Source: an uncultured Lachnospiraceae bacterium (GTDB lineage Bacteria; Bacillota; Clostridia; Lachnospirales; Lachnospiraceae). From it: DNA of 64,000 bases. Of this stretch, positions 17,173-31,676 are shown piece after piece; position 1 is the stretch's first letter; every line of letters starts with the position of its first letter. A program made the position numbers and the translations under genes. The stretch covers positions 17,033 to 81,032 of the forward strand of contig CAOKWI010000011.1 in assembly GCA_948473115.1 (NCBI GenBank), given 5' to 3'. Under the pieces are notes generated by a model that had not been told where the DNA came from, searched no databases, and worked only from the letters and a program-made list of their open reading frames with translations.

Positions 17173-17247
17173 TCGGAGTGGCGGGATTCGAACTCGCGAC
17201 CTCCGCCTCCCTAAGACGGCGCTCTAACCAAGCTGAGCCACACCCCG
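17173..17247 (-). tRNA. tRNA-Pro with anticodon AGG
   Basis: The minus strand gives CGGGGTG, TG, a D-arm GCTC..GAGC, G, an anticodon stem CCGTC/GGCGG (one T-G pair), loop TTAGGGA, a 5-base variable loop, a T-arm GCGAG-TTCGAAT-CCCGC and CACTCCG plus A. The anticodon at 17210-17212 is AGG, reading CCU proline codons; A34 would need conversion to inosine to read more. The T-stem has one A-C mismatch. CCA is not encoded. The acceptor stem pairs fully, with one G-T pair. Confidence 0.85.
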
Positions 17248-21695: not shown

Positions 21696-22799
21696 TCAGC
21701 TGTCCGTCCCCATCATTTTCCCCAGCTGCTCCACGATCCCGGCACTGCCGTTTACGGAGATCTCGCCCACCTTCTCACAGATCTTTTCCAGGTACTCAAG
21801 TTCCTTCAGCCTGTAAAGCGTCTGGTTTTCGTCCATAAGCTTCGCCGTGTTGAGCAGGGATCTGGTGGAAGCCACCTCCTCCCTCCTGGCGATCACGTTG
21901 GCCTGGGCCGTCTTCTCCGCCACAAGGACGGAATTCATGATCTCCCTGATCTCGCCGGGCAGGATAATGTCCCTGATTCCGGCGGTAAGGAAATTCACAC
22001 AGAACATCTCCTCCCTTTTCAACAGCGTCTCATAGATCTCCCTGGAAATCTGCTCCTTTGCCTCCAGGATCTCATCCAGCTTATAGTTACCCACGATCTC
22101 CCGGATGACCAGCTGCACCGCGGGATAAAGCTGCCCCTTGAGATCCGAGATCCTGGAGACGAACTCCACCGCATCCCGTATCTTATACATGCAGGCCACA
22201 TTCATCCTGATGCCGATCTTGTCTTTTGTCAGGATCTCCTGTCCCAGGATATCCATTTCCTTCTGCTTCATATCAAGTACACAATAAGTAATCACATGGT
22301 CGTAATTCCAGAACCGGTACACGCCCTTGGAAAGCTGCTCCTGCATCACATTATCGTAGTAGACCAGGCCAATCTCCCCCTCTCCCACCGACACTTCCGT
22401 GTAGAGGTGCTTCGGCACCAGTGCAAGCATCTGCTTTGTCACTTCTGCGCCGATCCTTGTTCCTTCCATGGATACAATCTTTATCTCATACCGGTCAAAT
22501 ACGTTCCAGAAAACGTACTCTTTCCGGCTTGCAAAGGAAGTCAGTTTTCCGTTCACATAGAGAAAACCCACAGATCCGTCCGGTATTTCCATATGTGCGG
22601 TGGATTTCACAAACAAGGGATCCCTGGAAAGCACCTGGTAAGGGACATCCAGGTAATTCATCTCTCCCAGCATTTCCTCAACCACCACCTGATATCCCGT
22701 CATTTTAGGGAAATAATACGTTCCCGCCGTGATCATTTTCTGGAACACGCCGCTTTTCACTACAAATCCTGCCTGATTGTCTCTTATGATATATTTCAT
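21696..22799 (-). CDS. Slipin / SPFH (band 7) family protein
   Basis: A 367-residue protein without a clear N-terminal membrane helix. It has an extra N-terminal domain (to about 150), then the SPFH core: VGEGEIGLVYYDNVMQEQLSKGVYRFWNYD, MKQKEMDILGQEILTKDKIGIRMNVACMYKI and VQLVIREIVGNYKLDEILEAKEQIS. The C-terminal part is helical (EKTAQANVIARREEVASTRSLLNTAKLM). Bacterial slipins are often linked to rtcB RNA-repair loci, and rtcB lies on the same strand about 900 bases upstream. The start MKYIIRDNQAG has GGAGGT 7 bases before it. Confidence 0.85.
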   Translation of the reverse strand: MKYIIRDNQAGFVVKSGVFQKMITAGTYYFPKMTGYQVVVEEMLGEMNYLDVPYQVLSRDPLFVKSTAHMEIPDGSVGFLYVNGKLTSFASRKEYVFWNVFDRYEIKIVSMEGTRIGAEVTKQMLALVPKHLYTEVSVGEGEIGLVYYDNVMQEQLSKGVYRFWNYDHVITYCVLDMKQKEMDILGQEILTKDKIGIRMNVACMYKIRDAVEFVSRISDLKGQLYPAVQLVIREIVGNYKLDEILEAKEQISREIYETLLKREEMFCVNFLTAGIRDIILPGEIREIMNSVLVAEKTAQANVIARREEVASTRSLLNTAKLMDENQTLYRLKELEYLEKICEKVGEISVNGSAGIVEQLGKMMGTDS

Positions 22800-22823
22800 G
22801 ATAAATACCTCCATTTTCGTCTT

Positions 22824-22928
22824 CTGTCTCCGCTCCGGGGTCGTTTTCTCCCGATGCTCTGTCTCCGCTCCGGGGTCGTTTTCTCCCGATGCTCTGCCTC
22901 CGCTCCGGGGCTGTTTTCTCTCGATTCC
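22824..22928 (+). repeat. Three tandem 35-bp units
   Basis: Units start at 22824, 22859 and 22894 and read CTGTCTCCGCTCCGGGGTCG followed by TTTTCTCCCGATGCT. The third has a few changes. There are no spacers. They lie just upstream of the slipin ribosome site and could modulate its leader. Confidence 0.9.
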
Positions 22929-22986
22929 TTTTGTCTGTAATACTTTTATCCCTCTTTCACCAGTCCCTGGCGGAAGCTTCGTTCAG

Positions 22987-23055
22987 CTTGCCGTGGGGAG
23001 GAAGGACGGTCTGACGGAACTTCCCTGGCAGACCGCTGTTCCCCCTTCCGGCAAG
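22987..23055. other. Long imperfect hairpin
   Basis: GCTTGCCG plus GGGAGGAAGG pairs with CCCCCTTCCGGCAAGC, closing an inner stem CGGTCTG / CAGACCG. It may be a terminator-like or repeat structure between the tRNA-like RNA and slipin. There is no T-run on either strand. Confidence 0.55.
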
Positions 23056-23078
23056 CGGTATCCCCAACCTTCAAGGCC

Positions 23079-23242
23079 CTAGTGTACTGACGTGTTCATA
23101 TTTCGCCGAATGACTTGCCCGAATTTCCATCTGCCGCGTTGTCATCGGTCAACGATGCAACCGCATCGCCTCCCTCCTCCGCCTTACAGATGGAAATTCA
23201 TTCGGCGTCATTTGGCTGAAAATGAATGCATCAGCACACTAG
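23079..23242. repeat. CTAG-bounded hairpin element, copy A (164 bp)
   Basis: Begins CTAGTGTACTGACGTGTTCA and, read from the other end, begins CTAGTGTGCTGATGCATTCA. The arms pair along most of their length, including AATTTCCATCTG. The centre is the shared core GTCAACGATGCAACCGCATC followed by GCCTCCCTCCTCCGCCTT. Related copies are at 32315-32480 and 36289-36454, with a fourth at 36151-36477 interrupted by the third. Confidence 0.8.
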
Positions 23243-23336
23243 ACTGATTCGGCGTCTTCACGCCCTCCCCCGGCAGGCGCCTCACCGGCGCTCTTCCAAA
23301 GGGCTGCGGGATCCGCCCGAAATCAGGATAAAAGCA

Positions 23337-23466
23337 TTCCATAGTGCGGAGTCGAACCGCAGACGTTACGTCTTGCCATAACCATGTGCACTCTACCACT
23401 GAGTTACCGTTTACACGGAAGGGATTCGAACCCTTGCATCACACATTCTCTTAACCCCATGTTAAG
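23337..23466 (-). ncRNA. tRNA-like (Y-RNA-like) structured RNA downstream of rtcB
   Basis: Read on the minus strand: a hairpin CTTAAC-ATGGG-GTTAAG (23450-23466), strand ATGTG (23442-23446), a T-arm AAGGG-TTCGAAT-CCCTT (23419-23435), an acceptor-like hairpin CCGT-GTAA-ACGG (23407-23418), TA, a D-arm ACTC-AGTGGTA-GAGT (23390-23404), G, then CACAT (23384-23388), which pairs with ATGTG. This is a permuted tRNA with a closed acceptor and an open anticodon stem. A further hairpin AGACG-TAA-CGTCT (23361-23373) and a second T-arm TGCGG-TTCGACT-CCGCA (23345-23361) follow. Bacterial Y RNAs are known to mimic tRNA this way, and some lie beside rtcB. No Ro60 gene is seen in the window. Whether it is transcribed with rtcB is inference. 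A canonical tRNA does not fit: the 5' strand TAAACGG cannot pair with CTATGGA. Confidence 0.65.
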
Positions 23467-23479
23467 CTTGGTGAAATAT

Positions 23480-23566
23480 TTATGGGATACCGGACAGCAC
23501 GCTGCCGGCACCGCCGGGCAGGGAGTAACTCCCGATACCCGCGCTCAATAAATTATTTCCATTTAC
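23480..23566 (-). pseudogene. Possible 3' remnant of an unidentified gene
   Basis: An open stretch on the minus strand ends NGNNLLSAGIGSYSLPGG and GSVLSGIP before TAA. The glycine/serine-rich composition looks protein-like. Just upstream the frame runs into the family G repeat at 23566-23725, so any gene here has lost its 5' part. It may equally be part of the leader of the tRNA-like RNA. I do not recognise a family. Confidence 0.2.
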
Positions 23567-23725
23567 ATTGGCGGCAGCACAGACAATCCATGAACTTGCC
23601 GCAAGTCCGGAAGAACGCCTTCCTTGGGCATTCTTCCGTGTGAGAAAGGCGCTGTCCCTGCGCCGTAGAACTTCTTGGCGTCCCATCCTATGATGGGACT
23701 CCTTAGAAGTTCTTCTCACACTCAG
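23566..23725. repeat. Modular hairpin repeat, family G copy 2
   Basis: GGCGGCAGCACAGACAATCC, then GAACTTGCCGCAAGTCC and GGAAGAACG..CATTCTTCC, shared with 55286-55360. Nested stems follow: TAGAACTTCTTGG..CCTTAGAAGTTCT around GTCCCATC-CTAT-GATGGGAC, with GTGTGAGA and TCTCACAC outermost. Its right end overlaps the rtcB stop. Confidence 0.6.
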
Positions 23726-24954
23726 CCCTTCACCACACCCACCGTTTTCAGCTTTCTCACCGGTGTCACCATGTCCGACTGCTGTGCCATGACCTGGTCG
23801 ATGTCCTTGTAGGCAAACCGACACTCCTCGGCAACATCGTTTTTCTTACGTTTTCCCAGCACAACATCCTGTTCTTTTAAATCCAGCATAACCTGTTCCA
23901 CGCTGAATGCTTTCATTGCCCCTGACCGGGAATAATTCCTTCCGGCGCCGTGGGAGGAGGTGCAGAAAGATTCCCTGTTTCCCTTTCCTTCCACTACATA
24001 GCTGTAGGATCCCATTGCCCCCGGTATGACTGCCATTTCCCCTTCCCGCACCCTGGTGGCTCCCTTTCTGTGTACCCAGACATTTTCGCCATAGTGGTTT
24101 TCCAGCGCCGCGTAGTTGTGGTGGCAGTTGATCTCCTCCCCGAACTCCACGGTATGTCCTGTATGCTTCTCTATCAGTTCCTTTACAATGGCACAGGTCT
24201 TATCCAGCATACGGGCGCGGTTCTCAAAGGCATAGTCCATGGCCAGATTCATCCAGTTGATATACTGCTGCCCTTCCTTCGACCGGACAGGCAGAAACGC
24301 CAGACGGTATTCCTCCTTTACCTCGCTGTACCACTGTCTGTTCAGTTCCCCTGCCATCTTATGGAAATGGTCACAGACGGCCTTCCCCAGATGACGGCTG
24401 CCGGAATGGATCATAATGCAGAGATACCCCTCCTGATCCTCCTGGAGCTCAATAAAATGATTGCCGCCTCCCAGGCTTCCCACCTGGAAATACCCGTCTC
24501 TGATCAGGGGCACCAGTCCCGGATTCTGCTCATACTTCTCCATCTCCTGCTGCGCCCTGTCCATCACCCTGGACTCCTGGGGAAGCTTATATCTTTCCGT
24601 GTTTAAGGGGATCGCCCTCATGATACTGCCGATGATGGCCTGGATCACGGTGCCGTTTCCGGTCTGTATCCCGCGGATATCCTCCACCCGGATATTGGTG
24701 GGAATGAAATCCATGCCGCATCCGATATCCACGCCCACCGCATTGGGAATGACCACTTCCTTTGCGGCGATGACACCGCCGATTGGCATTCCCTTGCCCG
24801 CATGGGTATCCGGCATGAGGCACACCCATTTATGTATGAAAGGAAGCTGCGACAGGTTATATGCCTGCTCCAGACAGTTCTCCTCCAGCCGGCTTTCGTC
24901 CTCCAGCCATACCTTTACCGGAAATCTAGTTTTCTCATTATATAATACAAACAT
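23722..24954 (-). CDS. rtcB: RNA-splicing ligase RtcB
   Basis: A 410-residue RNA ligase that joins 2',3'-cyclic phosphate or 3'-phosphate ends to 5'-OH ends using GTP and manganese. Ligands and catalytic parts are visible: GVDIGCGMDF (cysteine metal ligand), SLGGGNHFIELQ, HSGSRHLGK, NCHHNYA and the guanylylated histidine in SSHGAGRNYSRSGA. The C-terminus ends in VTPVRKLKTVGVVKG. I start it at MFVLYNEKTRFPVK, which fits family length; the frame to 25044 is too long and basic. The tRNA-like RNA and slipin lie downstream on the same strand, and a WYL regulator is divergent. A TATAAT sequence at 25062-25067 could be its -10. This context indicates RNA repair. Confidence 0.93.
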   Translation of the reverse strand: MFVLYNEKTRFPVKVWLEDESRLEENCLEQAYNLSQLPFIHKWVCLMPDTHAGKGMPIGGVIAAKEVVIPNAVGVDIGCGMDFIPTNIRVEDIRGIQTGNGTVIQAIIGSIMRAIPLNTERYKLPQESRVMDRAQQEMEKYEQNPGLVPLIRDGYFQVGSLGGGNHFIELQEDQEGYLCIMIHSGSRHLGKAVCDHFHKMAGELNRQWYSEVKEEYRLAFLPVRSKEGQQYINWMNLAMDYAFENRARMLDKTCAIVKELIEKHTGHTVEFGEEINCHHNYAALENHYGENVWVHRKGATRVREGEMAVIPGAMGSYSYVVEGKGNRESFCTSSHGAGRNYSRSGAMKAFSVEQVMLDLKEQDVVLGKRKKNDVAEECRFAYKDIDQVMAQQSDMVTPVRKLKTVGVVKG

Positions 24955-25525
24955 ATCCTCGCCATCCTTTCCTGCTGTTTTACGGTTTTCATCGACCATC
25001 CTCCGTTGCCTGCGGGTTTTCTGACCTGCCTTTCCGCGAGGCATCCGGTTGAACTGATTACATTATATGAAACCTTCCCGGCCAAATCATTTCAAAAAAG
25101 TTGCGAGGTTCGGAAAATTGTGCCATATTATAAACGGCTCAATCGCTTCTCGGTTCTTCCGCAGATGCCACAATTTATGGTATAATGACCTTATTCAAGG
25201 CAATCAGCGGCCGGATAGCCATCATCTGTAATCATGGTACAATGACTTGGAAATCAAATGTCTGCTTCGCGGCCGTTTGATTTCCTGCAACCATGGTACA
25301 GTCAATAACCCCGCTGCAAGCAACTGGGCATGGAGTTTGAAACGCCCCAAGGGCAATGCGTCCATAGGACGCTATGGTATTGGCCCTCGCGGCATTCGCC
25401 AACTGTCCAAGCCAGCCATTGGCTGGCTTTGTGCACGGCCGTTTGGCTCATTGCTCGCGGGAATAAAGAACCCGGCAGACTTCCGACCGCAACAGATACG
25501 CTCCCGGGGCAGAATGAGAGGAAAT
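24955..25525. other. Divergent spacer of rtcB and WYL gene with repeat and promoter-like sites
   Basis: No separate gene is seen. On the minus strand TATAAT lies at 25062-25067 (rtcB side). On the plus strand an extended -10, TGGTATAATG, lies at 25178-25187 and may drive the WYL gene with a leader of about 330 bases. The sequence ATGGTACAATGAC recurs in variant form three times (25176, 25232, 25292). GGAAATCAAA (25250) pairs with TTTGATTTCC (25276). The family E repeat occupies 25300-25466. Confidence 0.5.
25300..25466 (+). repeat. Interspersed repeat family E, copy 2 (167 bp)
   Basis: Same ends as 5056-5204 (AGTCAATAACCCCGCTGCAA ... GCGGGAATAA). The internal hairpin is longer here: AAGCCAGCC-ATT-GGCTGGCTT. 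The reading frame that encodes the NusG-protein insert is also open here and in phase with the WYL gene downstream, with no stop between 25247 and 26798. Confidence 0.85.
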
Positions 25526-26800
25526 ATGTCAGATTTTCAGGAGCTTGTGAAGAGCTTTCCCAAAACAAGAGAATACGTCCGTGATTTCTTTGTGTACGGC
25601 TTCAAGACCAGGGACGAATTTCAGGACAAGAGTCCCCGTACCTACGACAATGAACGGCGGCGGCTGGAAAGCTGGCTGGGGGAATATGTGCGGAAGGACC
25701 ATGTGTCAAACGGTGCCAACATCTCCCTCGCCATCGACAGCAACCTCCTGGACACCAACCCCCTGTTCCGGGTGTGGAAGACAAAAAGCTTTACCGACAA
25801 CGACATTGTACTGCATTTCCTGATACTGGATCTGCTGCAGGAGGGCATGAAGCTGACGGCGGAAGGAATCACGGAATGCCTGCTTGCGGAATACGAGGCT
25901 TTCTTTGACGTCCAGACCGTCCGCAGGAAATGTAACGCCTATGAAAAAGAGGGGTTGCTACAAAAAAGGAAGTCCGGCAAAACCGTGGTCTATTCCCTGG
26001 ATCACTCCCTTGCCCACTGGATCAGCACCAATGAAAATATGTTGGACGCCCTGGCCTTTTACCAGATGGCAGGCTGCTTCGGTATCGTTGGCAATCATCT
26101 CACGGAACAGCTGGATTTCCACAATCAAAGCTTTCGCGTAAAACACAGCTTCTGCGTACATACCCTGGAAGAAGAAATTCTTCTGGCCCTCCTGGATGCC
26201 ATGAACAAAAAGACAAATGTCCGCCTGGAAATGAAAAGTTCCAAAAGCGGAACCTCTAACACCGCAGACTGCACGCCGCTGCAGATTTTCACCAGCACCA
26301 GAAGCGGCCGGCGTTTCCTGTGCGGTTATGGGAGAAAAAGCCGACGCTTCTCCTGTTACCGGCTGGATACCATCAAAAGCGTCACCTCCCTGGAACCGTC
26401 GGAGGAATATGACGAACTGGCGGCCAGACTCGAGCGGAACCGTAACCGGCTCTGGGGCGTTTCCTTCCAGGGAAAGGACCGACGCCATCTGGACCGGCTG
26501 ACCATGACGGTACAGGCGCTGGAACCCACTGAAAATTATATTGTGGAACGCCTGAGGCGGGAGGGACGGGGCGGTACTGTCACCAGGATTGACAGGGATA
26601 TCTACCGATATGATGTGGAGGTCTTCGACTGCAATGAAATGCTGCCCTGGCTGCGCACCTTCATCGGCAGGATCCTGTCCCTGGAATGTACTGCCAAATC
26701 AGTGGAGCGGCGTTTCTACCAGGATTTACAGACCATGTACCGGATGTACAATGTGCAGGATGCGGACATGGCGGATGCGGCGTCCCCACAGGAACCATAA
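25526..26800 (+). CDS. WYL-domain transcriptional regulator (divergent from rtcB)
   Basis: A 424-residue protein starting MSDFQELVKSFPKTREYVRDFF. The N-terminal 200 residues contain two predicted winged-helix parts (LTAEGITECLLAEYEAFFDVQTVRRKCNAYEKEGLLQKRKSGKTVVYSLD). A WYL-type domain follows at about 240-320, with LQIFTSTRSGRRFLCGYGRKSRRFSCYRLDTIKSV; the WYL tripeptide itself is replaced by RFL. A WCX-like C-terminal region ends the protein. WYL regulators bind nucleic acid or nucleotide ligands and control stress and defence loci. AGAGG precedes the ATG. The frame runs further upstream into repeat DNA, so the true start could be earlier. Confidence 0.75.
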   Translation: MSDFQELVKSFPKTREYVRDFFVYGFKTRDEFQDKSPRTYDNERRRLESWLGEYVRKDHVSNGANISLAIDSNLLDTNPLFRVWKTKSFTDNDIVLHFLILDLLQEGMKLTAEGITECLLAEYEAFFDVQTVRRKCNAYEKEGLLQKRKSGKTVVYSLDHSLAHWISTNENMLDALAFYQMAGCFGIVGNHLTEQLDFHNQSFRVKHSFCVHTLEEEILLALLDAMNKKTNVRLEMKSSKSGTSNTADCTPLQIFTSTRSGRRFLCGYGRKSRRFSCYRLDTIKSVTSLEPSEEYDELAARLERNRNRLWGVSFQGKDRRHLDRLTMTVQALEPTENYIVERLRREGRGGTVTRIDRDIYRYDVEVFDCNEMLPWLRTFIGRILSLECTAKSVERRFYQDLQTMYRMYNVQDADMADAASPQEP

Positions 26801-26829
26801 CAGATCTTCTACAAGGAGGCGAAAACCCT

Positions 26830-27477
26830 ATGGAAAGAATAAACCGTGAAGATATGCTGGAACTCACCAGGCGCATGACTTTGAAAAGAAATTGCTTCGA
26901 CCGGATTGCAGGGGCATATATGGATGAAGATGGGTTTGTGGACGGAACCTTCAACCGGCATTTCCAGAAACTCACCGCCAGCGAGCGTCAGGTCAATCTG
27001 GACATTGCCAAAGCGATACCCTTTTCGGATACCAATGTGCAGCTGAGGGAATATGTAATCCCGGAGGTGGGCAGGCAGCGCGGAAGCCTTTGGCAGCTCC
27101 TCATGGCATTGAAAGACTGCGAACTGAAAAACGATGCGATGCTGGATGTCTTTTATGAGGAATTTGGGAGCAGGTACCGAAACCGGACAAACGGCAGCTA
27201 TGCCGTTATCTTTTTCCACGGAAGTTATGACGTGCCCCTGAAAGCAAGCGACAAAGAGAGTCTGTGGGAATCAGAAGAAGTCTTCCGGTTCCTGATCTGC
27301 GCCTTCTGCCCGGTCAGCGGAGATTACGAGCCGGGGAAACCCGACTGCGGTTTCCTGTTTCCGGCATTCAGGGGCAGAAGCAGCGATATACACCGGATCG
27401 ATGTTTTCCGGGAGGACGGCAGATTTTCAGCCGTGGAAAGATGGGAAGACATTTTGTTTCATTCCCGCAAGCAATGA
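26830..27477 (+). CDS. DUF4317-like protein
   Basis: A 215-residue protein. Its opening (MERINREDMLELTRRMTLKRNCFDRIAGAYMDEDG) and its end (YDVPLKASDKESLWESEEVFRFLICAFCPVSG, then GFLFPAFRGRSSDIHRIDVF) resemble the DUF4317 family of Clostridia. No function is known. It has no membrane segment. It follows the WYL gene by 29 bases with an AAGGAGG site, so the two form an operon divergent from rtcB. It may act with the regulator, but that is inference. The family assignment is from memory of the motif order. Confidence 0.6.
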   Translation: MERINREDMLELTRRMTLKRNCFDRIAGAYMDEDGFVDGTFNRHFQKLTASERQVNLDIAKAIPFSDTNVQLREYVIPEVGRQRGSLWQLLMALKDCELKNDAMLDVFYEEFGSRYRNRTNGSYAVIFFHGSYDVPLKASDKESLWESEEVFRFLICAFCPVSGDYEPGKPDCGFLFPAFRGRSSDIHRIDVFREDGRFSAVERWEDILFHSRKQ

Positions 27478-27519
27478 ACCAGGCCAGCCCTGCTGTCTTG
27501 GATACATCAGGATTACTGG

Positions 27520-28308
27520 TCACAACAGCGGTAAAATATCCTCCATCTCCCATTCCTTTGCCGGGAGAATCACCGCCCTGACGCCGATTACTTCCCTGAT
27601 GATGCACATTTCCAGCTGCTGCCTGTGCCTGAAATGGGCAATGATGTCATCAAAACCATTATATCCATGCTTCTCCCCGTAGGGTGAGTGTATCAAATAT
27701 TCCAGCAGCAGCGGATACCACAGTTCATTTCCCTTGTCATCACAGCGTTCCTTTCGGATGTCCCCAATAGTTTCTTCCAGCCTGTCGCTGTATAAATACA
27801 GCAGCAGAAACTGTTCCTGATTCACAGTCCCATATAATTCACGGTAAAATTCTACGATCTCGTCATCCGTCAGCATATGATACAAGAGCAGATCCTCTAT
27901 GATATTTTGGAAAAAAGCACACTCAAACAGATAGCCTGTACCCGCAAAATTCCTATATCTTGTTAAGACAAGTTCCCTCAGTTCCCCCAGGGTTTTTCTT
28001 CCATTATATACCTCATATTTCTCCAGTTCCTTATGGAAATGCGGGATATCCGTAAGAATCCTGGTATATGAAATGATAAAATGCTCCCTCTCGCTGACAG
28101 TATTCTTCACAATTTCATCGCGGATCGAGCCATAACGCTCCAGAACCGTTTCGTACTCCTCCTTTGTCATCCACGTACACCATGCCAGATCCACAGGCGA
28201 GTAGTCGCCCTCCCTGCAGACACGCAATTCCGGTACGACCGCCGTCAGACGGTTTACCAATGTGGATTTCCCCATCCCCTGTATTCCTTCCACAAAAACA
28301 TTCTTCAT
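27520..28308 (-). CDS. P-loop kinase-like protein (thymidylate-kinase-like fold)
   Basis: A 262-residue protein with an N-terminal Walker A motif in MKNVFVEGIQGMGKSTLVNRL. The following pattern YSPVDLAWCTWMTKEEYE and the helical middle resemble nucleoside/nucleotide kinases. There is no clear lid arginine motif. The substrate is unknown. It starts 17 bases after the stop of the AAA/PD-(D/E)XK gene on the same strand, so the two are probably co-transcribed. It interrupts the run between the two WYL genes. Confidence 0.65.
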   Translation of the reverse strand: MKNVFVEGIQGMGKSTLVNRLTAVVPELRVCREGDYSPVDLAWCTWMTKEEYETVLERYGSIRDEIVKNTVSEREHFIISYTRILTDIPHFHKELEKYEVYNGRKTLGELRELVLTRYRNFAGTGYLFECAFFQNIIEDLLLYHMLTDDEIVEFYRELYGTVNQEQFLLLYLYSDRLEETIGDIRKERCDDKGNELWYPLLLEYLIHSPYGEKHGYNGFDDIIAHFRHRQQLEMCIIREVIGVRAVILPAKEWEMEDILPLL

Positions 28309-28325
28309 GATCTGCCTGCCATTCC

Positions 28326-29912
28326 TTACCTGTCTTTCTCATACCTCTCAATCTTGCACCGGTGCTTTCTTGCCCCCGCCGGATCTTCCTTGGAATAGCT
28401 GATCCCCACCAGCAGGACATCGCCCCCATACTCCCTGAGAGCCTCCGGATACCGCCTGTCCCGGATCTGTTCAATGGCGCTTTCCGCCGACTGGCTCCAT
28501 TTCAGTTCAACGACCAGGGCAGGCAGCACACTGTCTTTCTTTGGAAGATATACCATATCCGCGTAACCCGCACCTGCGGGCAGTTCCTCAAACATTACAT
28601 ATTCATCCCCATAACTGAAATATGCCCTTTTGATCACGCTTCGCAATGCCTGCTCATTGTTATAGTACAGGGAAGATTCCTCTTCGTGAATCTTCTCTAT
28701 CTGCCCTGCAACAGCATCCTCCTTTCCATGAACGGTATCTTGAATAAGCTGTTCACTTTCCCGCACTCTCCTGATGGTATCATCCCGCCTTACCTGCCGG
28801 ATGGCCCTGGCAAATTCCATCCGGATCTCTTCATTGGGGATATGCACCTTCTGCGTTGTCTCGTCATAGGTCAGATATCCCAGATGGATCAGCAGCGTCA
28901 GCACATCATCCCTGTCACGGAAAGTGACCAGGTCATTGGCAAACCCCTTTGTGTCCACCTTTGCCCCCACGCCGCCGATCAGATCCGAAACCGTCCTGCC
29001 CAGTCCGTCAAAATCCAAGCTGATATATCCCATCAGGCTCTCCGCAGCAGAAGTCTGCGTCCAATAGGAATCAAAGTCATCATTCCGGATTGCCTCCATC
29101 ACAGAATTGGGATTATAGACAGACGCTATCTCCCGAAACGCATATCCGTCGTACCATTGCTTCATCTTTTCGAAATTGTTGCCGTGTTCCTGACAAAGTT
29201 CTCTGACCTCATCCTCCGTGAACCCCACATACTTTCCAAACTGCCTGGGCTTGATCATGGTATATTCCTTAAAGTCCGATATGGCTGACTGTGAACCATC
29301 CTTCTTAATGGGCAGAATACCAGTCATATATACCGCCGCAAATATTTTGTCTGTCATCCCACTGTTTTTGAACAGGGCACGCAGGAATTCCAGATATTTT
29401 CTCTGCTGGTCAGGATGCCCTGCCGCCTCCCTGATGGGCGCATCCCACTCATCAATGATCATGATGAACTTATTTCCTGCCGTTTCCGCCGCATTGGCCA
29501 GCGTTGCGGCAAAGCCCTCCGCCACGATCAGATCCTGATACTGTTCTGTCAGTTCCCGGACCACATTCCTCTGGATATAGGGCACAAGCTCTGACATGGA
29601 AGCCTCTCCTATCACCCCTGTCATATCCAGATAGATCACATCATACCTGTTCAGATGATCCCTGTACCGGGCATCCCTGGCTATCTCCAGATCGTCAAAG
29701 AGCCCTGTTGAATCACAGGTCTTGTCATAATAGGCACATAGCATTTTAGCCGCAAAGGACTTTCCAAAACGCCGGGGGCGGCTGATACATGTCAGACACA
29801 TCGACGTATTGATTGTCTGGTTGATCAATCCGACCAGACCCGACTTATCCACATAAGCACTATTCCTGATTCTGGCAAATCCGCTGTTGCCAGGATTCAA
29901 ATAATTTCCCAT
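28326..29912 (-). CDS. AAA-ATPase-like / PD-(D/E)XK nuclease fusion protein
   Basis: A 528-residue protein of a type expanded in Lachnospiraceae and Bacteroidetes. The N-terminal AAA-ATPase_like domain has NSGFARIRNSAYVDKSGLV, a P-loop in ISRPRRFGKSFAAKML, and FIMIIDEWDAPI (Walker B). The C-terminal PDDEXK_9-like domain has the core GYADMVYLPKKDS followed by ALVVELKWSQSAESAIEQI, with D, E and K in the expected positions. Its role is not established; toxin or mobile-element links have been suggested for the family. I chose the ATG 10 bases after AGGAGG. Confidence 0.85.
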   Translation of the reverse strand: MGNYLNPGNSGFARIRNSAYVDKSGLVGLINQTINTSMCLTCISRPRRFGKSFAAKMLCAYYDKTCDSTGLFDDLEIARDARYRDHLNRYDVIYLDMTGVIGEASMSELVPYIQRNVVRELTEQYQDLIVAEGFAATLANAAETAGNKFIMIIDEWDAPIREAAGHPDQQRKYLEFLRALFKNSGMTDKIFAAVYMTGILPIKKDGSQSAISDFKEYTMIKPRQFGKYVGFTEDEVRELCQEHGNNFEKMKQWYDGYAFREIASVYNPNSVMEAIRNDDFDSYWTQTSAAESLMGYISLDFDGLGRTVSDLIGGVGAKVDTKGFANDLVTFRDRDDVLTLLIHLGYLTYDETTQKVHIPNEEIRMEFARAIRQVRRDDTIRRVRESEQLIQDTVHGKEDAVAGQIEKIHEEESSLYYNNEQALRSVIKRAYFSYGDEYVMFEELPAGAGYADMVYLPKKDSVLPALVVELKWSQSAESAIEQIRDRRYPEALREYGGDVLLVGISYSKEDPAGARKHRCKIERYEKDR

Positions 29913-30051
29913 CGACCGCATCCCTCCTGATATTTCCCATACCGCAACGTATTCCTGCCACATGTCCGGCCTGGCTTTTCATGCTTATGCTTCTATTATA
30001 CCCTTGACATAACCGTTGCACAATGAAATTATGTAAGGCATCGTCTCTCCC

Positions 30052-30369
30052 TTATCCGTTTTCACAGTCCCACAGGCAGCGTTTCAGGTCAACATGATAT
30101 TCATCCTTCAGTGACACCCCTTCCTGCCGCAGCAGATATTCCTGCTCCCTCCATCCGGGAACCAGCCTCCCCGCATGATTGACAACCCTGTGACAGGGAT
30201 ACCTCCCATAAAACTCTGCCATACTGAGGACTTTCCCCACAAGGCGTGCATTTCTATCCCTGCCGATCAGTTTTGCGATCTGCCCATACGTCGCAACGCA
30301 TCCCTCCGGGATTTCCTCTACTACGGAAAGAATCTCATAAATAAGTGACTCATTTAGAATATGTCCCAT
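30052..30369 (-). CDS. MGMT-family DNA methyltransferase domain protein
   Basis: A 105-residue protein that is only the DNA-binding, active-site domain of O6-alkylguanine transferases. The PCHRV motif retains the acceptor cysteine (YGRYPCHRVVNHAGRLVPGW), so it could take up alkyl groups, unlike ATL proteins where the cysteine is tryptophan or alanine. The helix-turn-helix region is GCVATYGQIAKLIGRDRNARLVGKVL. The short form lacks the N-terminal domain of Ogt. AAGGGG precedes the chosen ATG. It is divergent from the second WYL gene. Confidence 0.85.
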   Translation of the reverse strand: MGHILNESLIYEILSVVEEIPEGCVATYGQIAKLIGRDRNARLVGKVLSMAEFYGRYPCHRVVNHAGRLVPGWREQEYLLRQEGVSLKDEYHVDLKRCLWDCENG

Positions 30370-30494
30370 TTCTATAACGCCCCTTGACAAAAACTGTTTT
30401 TTGCATTATCACTATATCATGAATCTTCGATTCATGATCGTCATTCGCCGTTCGCCGAATGTGACAACTGAAATCCTGGGAGAGGTGGATCGTC

Positions 30495-31676
30495 ATGGAA
30501 CTATTTTCGGAAATATATAGCTGCTATTATCAGGTGTTACGGCATTTGCTGTGCAGCGCTGACCCCCTGACCATAGAGGACATCCGCAGCCGGATCTGCG
30601 GCGAAGGCTTTGAGGAAAGCCTGCTCTCGATCATACCAAAGCTGGAGGACGGTACGTGGAATTTATTCGAAAAGGAAGGGAAGCTTTACCGTTCCAGAAT
30701 TTCTTCCACCTTTATCACCCCTGTATCCGGACTGGAAAAAGCATATCTGAAAGCGCTGCTGTCAGACCCCCGCATGGGGCTGTTCCTGGACGGCGGACAG
30801 CGGGATGCCCTGGATCAGATGCTAGAGGGCGTCACTCCCCTCTGGAAGCCGGGACAGTTCTATTATTTTGACCGTTTCTCCGACAGCGACCCCTATGAGG
30901 ACGAAAATTACCGCCGCTGCTTCCGCACCCTGCTTCGGGCACAGAAGGAAAACCGGTTTGTGGATATTGATTACACCTCGCCAAACGGGAACCGCGTGCA
31001 TCACCATTACGTCCCCGCCCGCCTGGAATACTCGGTAAAAAATGACAAGTTCCGTCTTCTGTGCCTGAGACCGTCCCGTTCCGGTGATCATTCCCACGGA
31101 CAGTGGCGTCGTAACAGGATACCAGATACCGGATTCACCAAAAACGCCGAAACAACCGATCCCGGTTTAGACCCCAATGGCTTATACCCCAATACACAGA
31201 GCCTGCTGCGCGAAAACACCCCTCCGGCCATCATTCCGGCTTCCTGCTGCCCTGAACAGACCGGCGGAAAAATGAGACTGGAAATCCTGAACGTGTCCCG
31301 TATCCAGAATGTCCTCCCGATGGACAAAATCCTTTCCTCCCCTGCGGATCTGAATACAGTGATCCGGCGTTCCTACTATCAGGAACCGCTGAGGCTGCGC
31401 ATCGTGGACAGGCGCAATGCCCTGGAAAGGGCCATGCTGCACTTTGCAAACTATGAGAAGAATACCACAAAAATAGATGACGACACCTATGAATGCCTCA
31501 TTTATTACAACCAGGGCATGGAGACGGAACTGTTGATTGAGATCATGTCCTTCGGCCCCATGCTCACCGTGCTTGGAAATGAGCGATTCCTGAGCAGCCT
31601 GAAAGCGAGGCTACAGAGGCAGAGAAAGCTTGCTGCAGAAATGGTTTCCGCTCAAAGCATACAGACAGAGCAGTGA
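30495..31676 (+). CDS. Second WYL-domain regulator
   Basis: A 393-residue protein. Residues 1-75 look like a winged-helix segment, and 135-190 hold the WYL region (ENRFVDIDYTSPNGNRVHHHYVPARLEYSVKNDKFRLLCLRPS). The C-terminal part (VLPMDKILSSPADLNTVIRRSYYQEPLRLRIVDRRNALERAMLHFANYEKNT) resembles a WCX extension. A middle segment (about 195-250, RSGDHSHGQWRRNRIPDTGF) looks like a low-complexity insertion. GAGAGGT precedes the ATG. The upstream spacer has hairpins at 30418-30436 and 30442-30461. It may form a pair with the WYL gene at 25526. Confidence 0.75.
   Translation: MELFSEIYSCYYQVLRHLLCSADPLTIEDIRSRICGEGFEESLLSIIPKLEDGTWNLFEKEGKLYRSRISSTFITPVSGLEKAYLKALLSDPRMGLFLDGGQRDALDQMLEGVTPLWKPGQFYYFDRFSDSDPYEDENYRRCFRTLLRAQKENRFVDIDYTSPNGNRVHHHYVPARLEYSVKNDKFRLLCLRPSRSGDHSHGQWRRNRIPDTGFTKNAETTDPGLDPNGLYPNTQSLLRENTPPAIIPASCCPEQTGGKMRLEILNVSRIQNVLPMDKILSSPADLNTVIRRSYYQEPLRLRIVDRRNALERAMLHFANYEKNTTKIDDDTYECLIYYNQGMETELLIEIMSFGPMLTVLGNERFLSSLKARLQRQRKLAAEMVSAQSIQTEQ

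Follow-up and report, generated by a model that had tools for sequence, protein, structure and literature searches.

In YrlA, a bacterial Y RNA, a tRNA-like domain binds PNPase while a stem holds Rsr (as described in passages of PMC8394870), and a neighbourhood with rtcB is known for this RNA in Salmonella (parts of PMC7790460). Large structured RNAs such as OLE, GOLLD and ROOL, in the sections of PMC12286853 devoted to them, are several hundred nucleotides long and rich in helices. The membrane protein OapA is a binding partner of OLE, tRNAs occur in the linker of some GOLLD RNAs, and GOLLD and ROOL are both described from phages and prophages, often near tRNA islands. At the level of operons, the rtc locus of Pseudomonas aeruginosa (RtcA/RtcB/RtcR) includes an SPFH protein, PaFlo8 (portions of PMC13086221), and passages of PMC4012209 note that RtcR carries a divergent CARF domain and discuss WYL and CARF domains together as predicted ligand sensors. 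The vault, finally, is described in part of PMC13174449 as a particle of MVP, TEP1, PARP4 and vault RNA.

The locus reported here lies in a contiguous stretch of 64,000 nucleotides (the window) from an uncultured Lachnospiraceae bacterium, in which rtcB, a structured RNA element and a slipin gene follow one another on the minus strand (Table 1). As in the rtc operon, an rtcB gene, an SPFH gene and a nearby regulator with a predicted ligand-sensing domain are found together, with the difference that here the WYL genes stand on the opposite strand and an RNA element separates rtcB from the slipin. With respect to GOLLD and ROOL, the setting also differs, being an rtcB-slipin operon.

Table 1. 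Coordinates of the features discussed, in window positions.
Feature	Position	Strand	Sequence, evidence or remark
SPFH/slipin protein	21696..22814	-	PF01145; maximum 19-residue hydropathy 1.14; model
Whole structured RNA element	22935..23560	-	626 nt; alignment of 32 intergenic regions, RNAalifold, pair counts
3' domain, long-range closing helix AAUGCUUUUAUCC / GGAUAAAAGUAUU	22935..23341	-	helices P11-P17
Palindromic MITE-like insertion, about 165 bp	23079..23242	.	inside 3' domain
T-arm 2 (GCGG TTCGACT CCGC)	23346..23360	-	30/30 rows paired, one two-sided change
Hairpin 2 (AGAC-GTAAC-GTCT)	23361..23373	-	covariation alignment, loops of relatives
Permuted tRNA-like module	23384..23444	-	GTGTG/T-arm 1/GTAA-closed acceptor/TA/D-arm/G/CACAT
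CACAT	23384-23388	-	
G	23389	-	
D-arm	23390-23404	-	ACTC AGTGGTA GAGT
TA linker	23405-23406	-	tRNA-like module
Acceptor hairpin	23407-23418	-	CCGT GTAA ACGG
T-arm 1	23419-23435	-	AAGGG TTCGAAT CCCTT
Hairpin H1 (CTTAAC/GTTAAG)	23450..23466	-	5/6 pairs two-sided, 87.1% paired
5' domain, closing helix P1 + P2, P3 (GGUGCC...GGUAUCCC)	23470..23560	-	A5 alignment, model R2
rtcB	23722..25044	-	PF01139 364 bits, positions 1-426/426
Promoter box CTCGCAACTTTTTTGAAATGAT-N18-TATAAT	25062..25110	-	conserved
Divergent WYL-domain regulator	25247..26800	+	PF13280; PADLOC WYL
Second WYL-like gene	30495-31676	+	PADLOC WYL

Against 299 genomes of the family, BLASTN returned the window itself and three long matches (L002-L004, E<=2e-25), all of them between rtcB and slipin and on one strand, and in 81 further genomes it gave short matches under 38 bits only. 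A profile search with the slipin yielded 35 named loci in Lachnospiraceae, including Blautia, Roseburia and Schaedlerella (L002, L003 and L004 coincide with L059, L056 and L036, respectively, and were not counted a second time). The association with rtcB and slipin that an earlier note on this DNA had pointed to holds among these relatives: rtcB stands upstream of the slipin in 31 of the 35 loci, and in the genome with the broken locus L032 a separate contig (L116) carries both rtcB and the 5' domain. Since the slipin was the route to nearly all loci, its link with the element is to some extent built in. Just downstream of the slipin, L049, L056, L058 and L059 have ordinary tRNA genes (Glu first).

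The RtcB domain is full length, and the start of its gene is probably internal, at MFVLYNEK (about 24954). To judge from hydropathy and a predicted model, the slipin has no transmembrane segment and carries extra beta repeats. A match to the first WYL gene was found upstream, on the opposite strand, in 23 of the 35 loci; five (L031, L032, L037, L040, L060) lack the upstream sequence, and in seven with more than 1.2 kb of it (L039, L046, L047, L057, L061, L064, L065) no WYL match was obtained at E<=1e-8. Between the two WYL-like genes of the window lie a DUF4317 ORF, a P-loop ORF and an AAA-ATPase/PDDEXK gene (26686-30390), while relatives such as L033 and L034 have two adjacent WYL matches. 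Upstream of rtcB, a box (TTCGCAACTTTTTTGAAATGAT, about 18 nt, TATAAT) is present in 27 of the 28 available sequences (window included; not in L063), counted on its 11-base core with one mismatch allowed. The same box stands directly upstream of the element in seven loci without rtcB (L055, L057, L065, L131, L141, L142, L143). Spacing and -10 are not uniform across the rows (a clear TATAAT is lacking in L131 and L141), and no match was found in L136, in L149 or on the relevant strand of L150. The P1 strand of L057 starts some 10 bases downstream of the -10-like box. In L055 it is P2 that starts 4 bases after the -10 box, and P1 is doubtful there, or may be absent from the transcript, because the stretch aligned to it overlaps this box. 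The box is evidence, read from the sequence, that the strand of the element is transcribed.

Between the two genes, the element fills the gap, which holds little else: a median of 64 nt separates it from the rtcB stop (n=27), a median of 59 nt lies between it and the slipin match (n=31), and its length in 31 relatives is 368-777 nt (median 534). The alignment of 32 whole intergenic regions (all but L032, L043, L053 and L065) has conserved blocks across the gap, and the RNAalifold helices, grouped into 17, comprise 122 pairs with 92.3% of cells paired. Changes on both sides affect 61 of the 122 pairs (shuffle mean 30, maximum 41) and 249 cells (shuffle mean 69, maximum 99), the shuffle controls being blind to kinship. 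The 5' domain is also supported by itself (A5, 32 rows: 95.6% paired, 11 pairs two-sided, a level reached by 0/500 shuffles), and its model R2 matches 33 of 34 locus genomes, once each but twice in G306. Long-range helix P11 has 13 pairs, 5 of them two-sided, as many as 37/500 shuffles reach; P17 stands out by two-sided cells and not by pair number; and the weakest helices are the D-arm (zero two-sided changes in the whole-element count), P9, P10 and P12. The 3' domain contains a near-invariant GGAUACC internal loop (33 of the 36 main-set gaps have GGATACC, as do 6 of the 12 distant ones). Its window copy also contains the MITE-like insertion, which has 43 matches across the genome that carries it, counting itself, some dozen of them close to full length, is absent from the close relative L031 and might impair this copy of the element. 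Tandem repeats of about 35 bp (CCCCGGAGCGGAGACAGAGCATCGGGAGAAAACGA) lie between the RNA and the slipin, at 22815-22930.

In size and architecture (several hundred nucleotides with conserved long-range helices), the element resembles OLE, GOLLD and ROOL. These families are absent from the 13 matches (E<=10) of the Rfam search of 22800-23720, as well as from the threshold matches of 20 further loci, and no Rfam 15 family at all reaches its threshold over the element in the window or in those 20 loci. We noticed no description of the element in the open-licence literature searched. The tRNA mimic is of a known kind, and what is unmatched in Rfam 15 at threshold is its embedding in a large, Ro-free element between rtcB and slipin.

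This mimic is what the earlier note had recognized as a tRNA-like RNA in permuted order, and all the elements listed there, including the second T-arm and the extra hairpin, are present on the rtcB strand. Its closing stem was proposed to pair CACAT with ATGTG; a pairing partner does exist, but relatives place the register at GTGTG (23440-23444) instead of ATGTG (23442-23446), which leaves a 4-nt variable loop in the module. A strict descriptor of the permuted order has one match in the 64-kb window and zero in 2.56 Mb of Markov-1 sequence, so that the module is more than chance. In the Rfam search, YrlA (RF02553) is the best partial match over the gap (23390-23436, E=1.7e-4), but with 30.7 bits it does not reach the gathering score of 69 bits; two tRNA matches overlapping it are weak (20.3 and 16.3 bits), and in L065 YrlA scores 25.6 bits. 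ARAGORN reports no tRNA at the element, its one tRNA within the window lying outside it, at 17173-17247. Folded alone, the 127-nt stretch is not more stable than its shuffles (z -0.36). Its minimum-energy fold contains H1, T-arm 1, the acceptor, the D-arm and T-arm 2; the closing stem takes the ATGTG/CACAT register there, and a different hairpin stands in place of hairpin 2. The centroid fold of the stretch does not show the module.

Comparison of 39 modules, together with the descriptor control, supports the permuted, YrlA-type topology. The set spans slipins of about 40-56% identity and L150, from another family of the class; it excludes L097 and also L129, where the module was recognized by eye and the pattern failed. 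Its 18 pairs are 98.0% paired; two-sided changes affect 13 of them (shuffle mean 7.7, maximum 12) and 87 cells (shuffle mean 14.2, maximum 24), and the compensatory changes anticipated for the closing stem and the acceptor are among them. Counted as minimum changes on the slipin tree (one-sided included), 11 of the 18 pairs changed type at least 4 times (AC 6, 2, 1, 2, 5; T 6, 8, 4, 0, 0; acceptor 4, 6, 4, 4; D 11, 0, 0, 4). The acceptor stem, as counted, has 3 to 8 bp (4 bp in 32 of 39 modules) and is capped by a GNRA loop in 29 of 39. Positions 8, 14, 15, 18, 19, 48, 54-56 and 58, which form the elbow in tRNA, are retained in nearly all modules. C48 occurs in 38/39, A14 and G15 in 39/39, UA at 8-9 in 37/39 and the D-loop GG in 39/39, and of these the search pattern itself demanded U8, G15 and a purine at 14, as well as UU54-55 and A58, leaving C48 and GG free. 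C48, GG, A14, G15, U8, U54-C56 and A58 together make a predicted complete tRNA elbow core.

Among 36 sequences (the 35 loci and the window), the strict descriptor matches 32, once each, with no other match in 665 kb (both strands counted); the module is thus present in the window and in 31 of 35 loci, and is missing from L032 (contig end), L040, L043 (Ns) and L057. The elbow appears dispensable in some strains, since L040 and L057 keep slipin and element without it. L038 and L040 are two rtcB-RNA-slipin loci of one MAG, one with and one without the module. The D-arm is absent in L141, L143 and L149, whose T-arm and closed acceptor stand without it, as if the elbow were undergoing reduction. 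Model R1 has no match in L131 and L136.

The proposal of a stand-alone, Y-RNA-like transcript of about 130 nt is not supported by this comparison, the module being embedded in the window in an element of about 626 nt, the rest of which L040 and L057 keep without it, as does L043, although with Ns at that place. As for Y-RNA identity, the module does resemble the YrlA effector module (the order T-arm, closed acceptor and D-arm, the closing stem at the anticodon-stem position, the vicinity of rtcB), but it differs in being an internal domain of a ~500-nt element with a second T-arm and hairpin 2. Because the Rfam cut-off is unreached and the long 5'/3' basal stem of the Ro60-binding type was not seen (a 5-bp stem closes the module, which is flanked by H1 and hairpin 2), it looks YrlA-like and is at most a candidate Y RNA. 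The absence of a Ro60 gene was confirmed by profile: TROVE/Ro60 (PF05731) has no match in 35 genomes, the bacterium's own and those of 34 relatives, although a Deinobacterium genome used as positive control was matched. This absence is not absolute, since completeness is 86.6% for the bacterium's genome and is not stated for those of the 34 relatives. A genome of the same genus has a separate stand-alone YrlA-like RNA (L097 2890-3000, below the Rfam cut-off), whose acceptor is a 7-bp stem with a GAAA cap; it lies upstream of the gene for a 706-aa protein that partially matches the MXAN_6230/SCO0854 family, under the family cut-off; no rtcB match occurs within the 6 kb read there.

Our preferred reading, held tentatively and with a little less than even confidence, is that the tRNA-like part belongs to a predicted structured RNA of ~370-780 nt acting as a scaffold, whose elbow would dock a tRNA-recognising protein, PNPase for example. 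The WYL proteins would switch the promoter on during RNA damage, and the RNA, stable and possibly cut from the rtcB-RNA-slipin transcript, would serve as a non-coding RNA. While the permuted elbow docks its protein, other RNA domains would bind the slipin ring or RtcB, and repair or decay of broken tRNA might thereby be concentrated on one particle. By analogy, the tethering logic would be that of YrlA-Ro60-PNPase, with slipin or RtcB in the place of Ro60. This scaffold is supported by covariation both in the element as a whole and in the elbow, the latter across slipins as divergent as about 40% identity, by the conserved tRNA-core positions, by rtcB upstream in 31/35 loci and the 5' domain in 33/34 genomes, by the filled gap, by the way the element follows the promoter box immediately in loci lacking rtcB there, and by the lack of TROVE in 35/35 genomes. 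Against it stand the loss of the elbow in L040 and L057 and of the D-arm in L141, L143 and L149, the single-sequence folding (z -0.36, centroid without module), and some helices whose two-sided pairs are not outstanding in number (P9, P12, P17, D-arm); moreover, nothing singles out PNPase.

Its position between two genes also speaks against a scaffold, since the element could act as mRNA only. A cis-acting leader of the slipin mRNA, in which the tRNA-like parts bind tRNA-processing or -sensing factors, so that the state of the tRNA pool decides slipin translation or cutting of the slipin mRNA, is a serious but rather unlikely candidate. Such a leader would fit an element that ends a median of 59 nt before the slipin, that stands upstream of it even without rtcB (L055, L057, L065) and that stays with slipin rather than rtcB in the loci seen (nearly all slipin-fetched); yet for a leader, an element of about 500 nt whose remote helices are conserved would be large, and the known example of the YrlA-type fold is a free RNA. 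The columns included in the fold stop short of the slipin ribosome-binding site.

Hairpin 2 suggests a further function, as a decoy or sensor for tRNA-cleaving nucleases: it would mimic an anticodon arm, and the elbow a tRNA, such that the nucleases are soaked up or their cuts sealed by RtcB. In 13 of the 30 rows of the A6 alignment, which leaves out L032 (contig end), L040, L043 and L057 (no module), L053 (near twin of L052) and L065 (distant), the hairpin has, by eye, an anticodon-like 7-nt loop, YUGUNAA, seen also in the distant L065, L134 and L135 and in L128, where the hairpin follows T-arm 2. Tyr, His, Asn and Asp tRNAs have anticodon loops similar to YUGUN. RtcB, moreover, adjoins the element, and parts of PMC7790460 propose a competitive-inhibitor role for YrlA. 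We nevertheless consider a decoy improbable, as 17 of the 30 rows, window included (5-nt loop GTAAC), are without the YUGUNAA loop, and the same parts of PMC7790460 report Salmonella YrlA fragments as undetected, implying that it is not a nuclease substrate there. As to descent, the module could be a decayed tandem tRNA pair (one contributing its T-arm, the next its D- and T-arm): genuine tandem tRNAs are also picked up by model R1, scoring up to 51.6 bits against 109.1 for the window, and the 29 best cross-reacting loci all (29/29) hold ARAGORN tRNAs. An origin of this kind is quite possible, but a functionless remnant is highly improbable, being disfavoured by the compensatory changes, the GNRA cap, a fixed place in one operon and the lack of any ARAGORN tRNA at the module in 38 loci.

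A bolder extension of the scaffold, which we regard as a long shot, would be a counterpart of the vault: a soluble SPFH cage with MVP-like repeats, shoulder and cap helix around the ~500-nt RNA, with the elbow bringing broken tRNA and RtcB inside. The slipin model has predicted beta repeats, an SPFH shoulder and a long helix, without a membrane segment, an arrangement that may resemble that of the vault protein; among the ten MVP entries listed, six align with it, from model residue 1 or 2 to 332-350. TEP1 contains a TROVE domain. If true, the vault reading would imply a damage-induced RNA-repair particle joining Y-RNA, RNA-ligase and vault biology.

What is understood of bacterial Y RNAs comes mainly from Ro60. 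A conserved mimic accompanied by rtcB and an SPFH gene, in genomes where Ro60 was not found, suggests that such an RNA can act with a different partner, and the question of what it binds becomes directly testable. If the RNA is stable, it would represent a new large structured RNA family of the Lachnospiraceae, with one further case confirmed outside that family yet within the class, and would be a candidate partner for a soluble SPFH ring.
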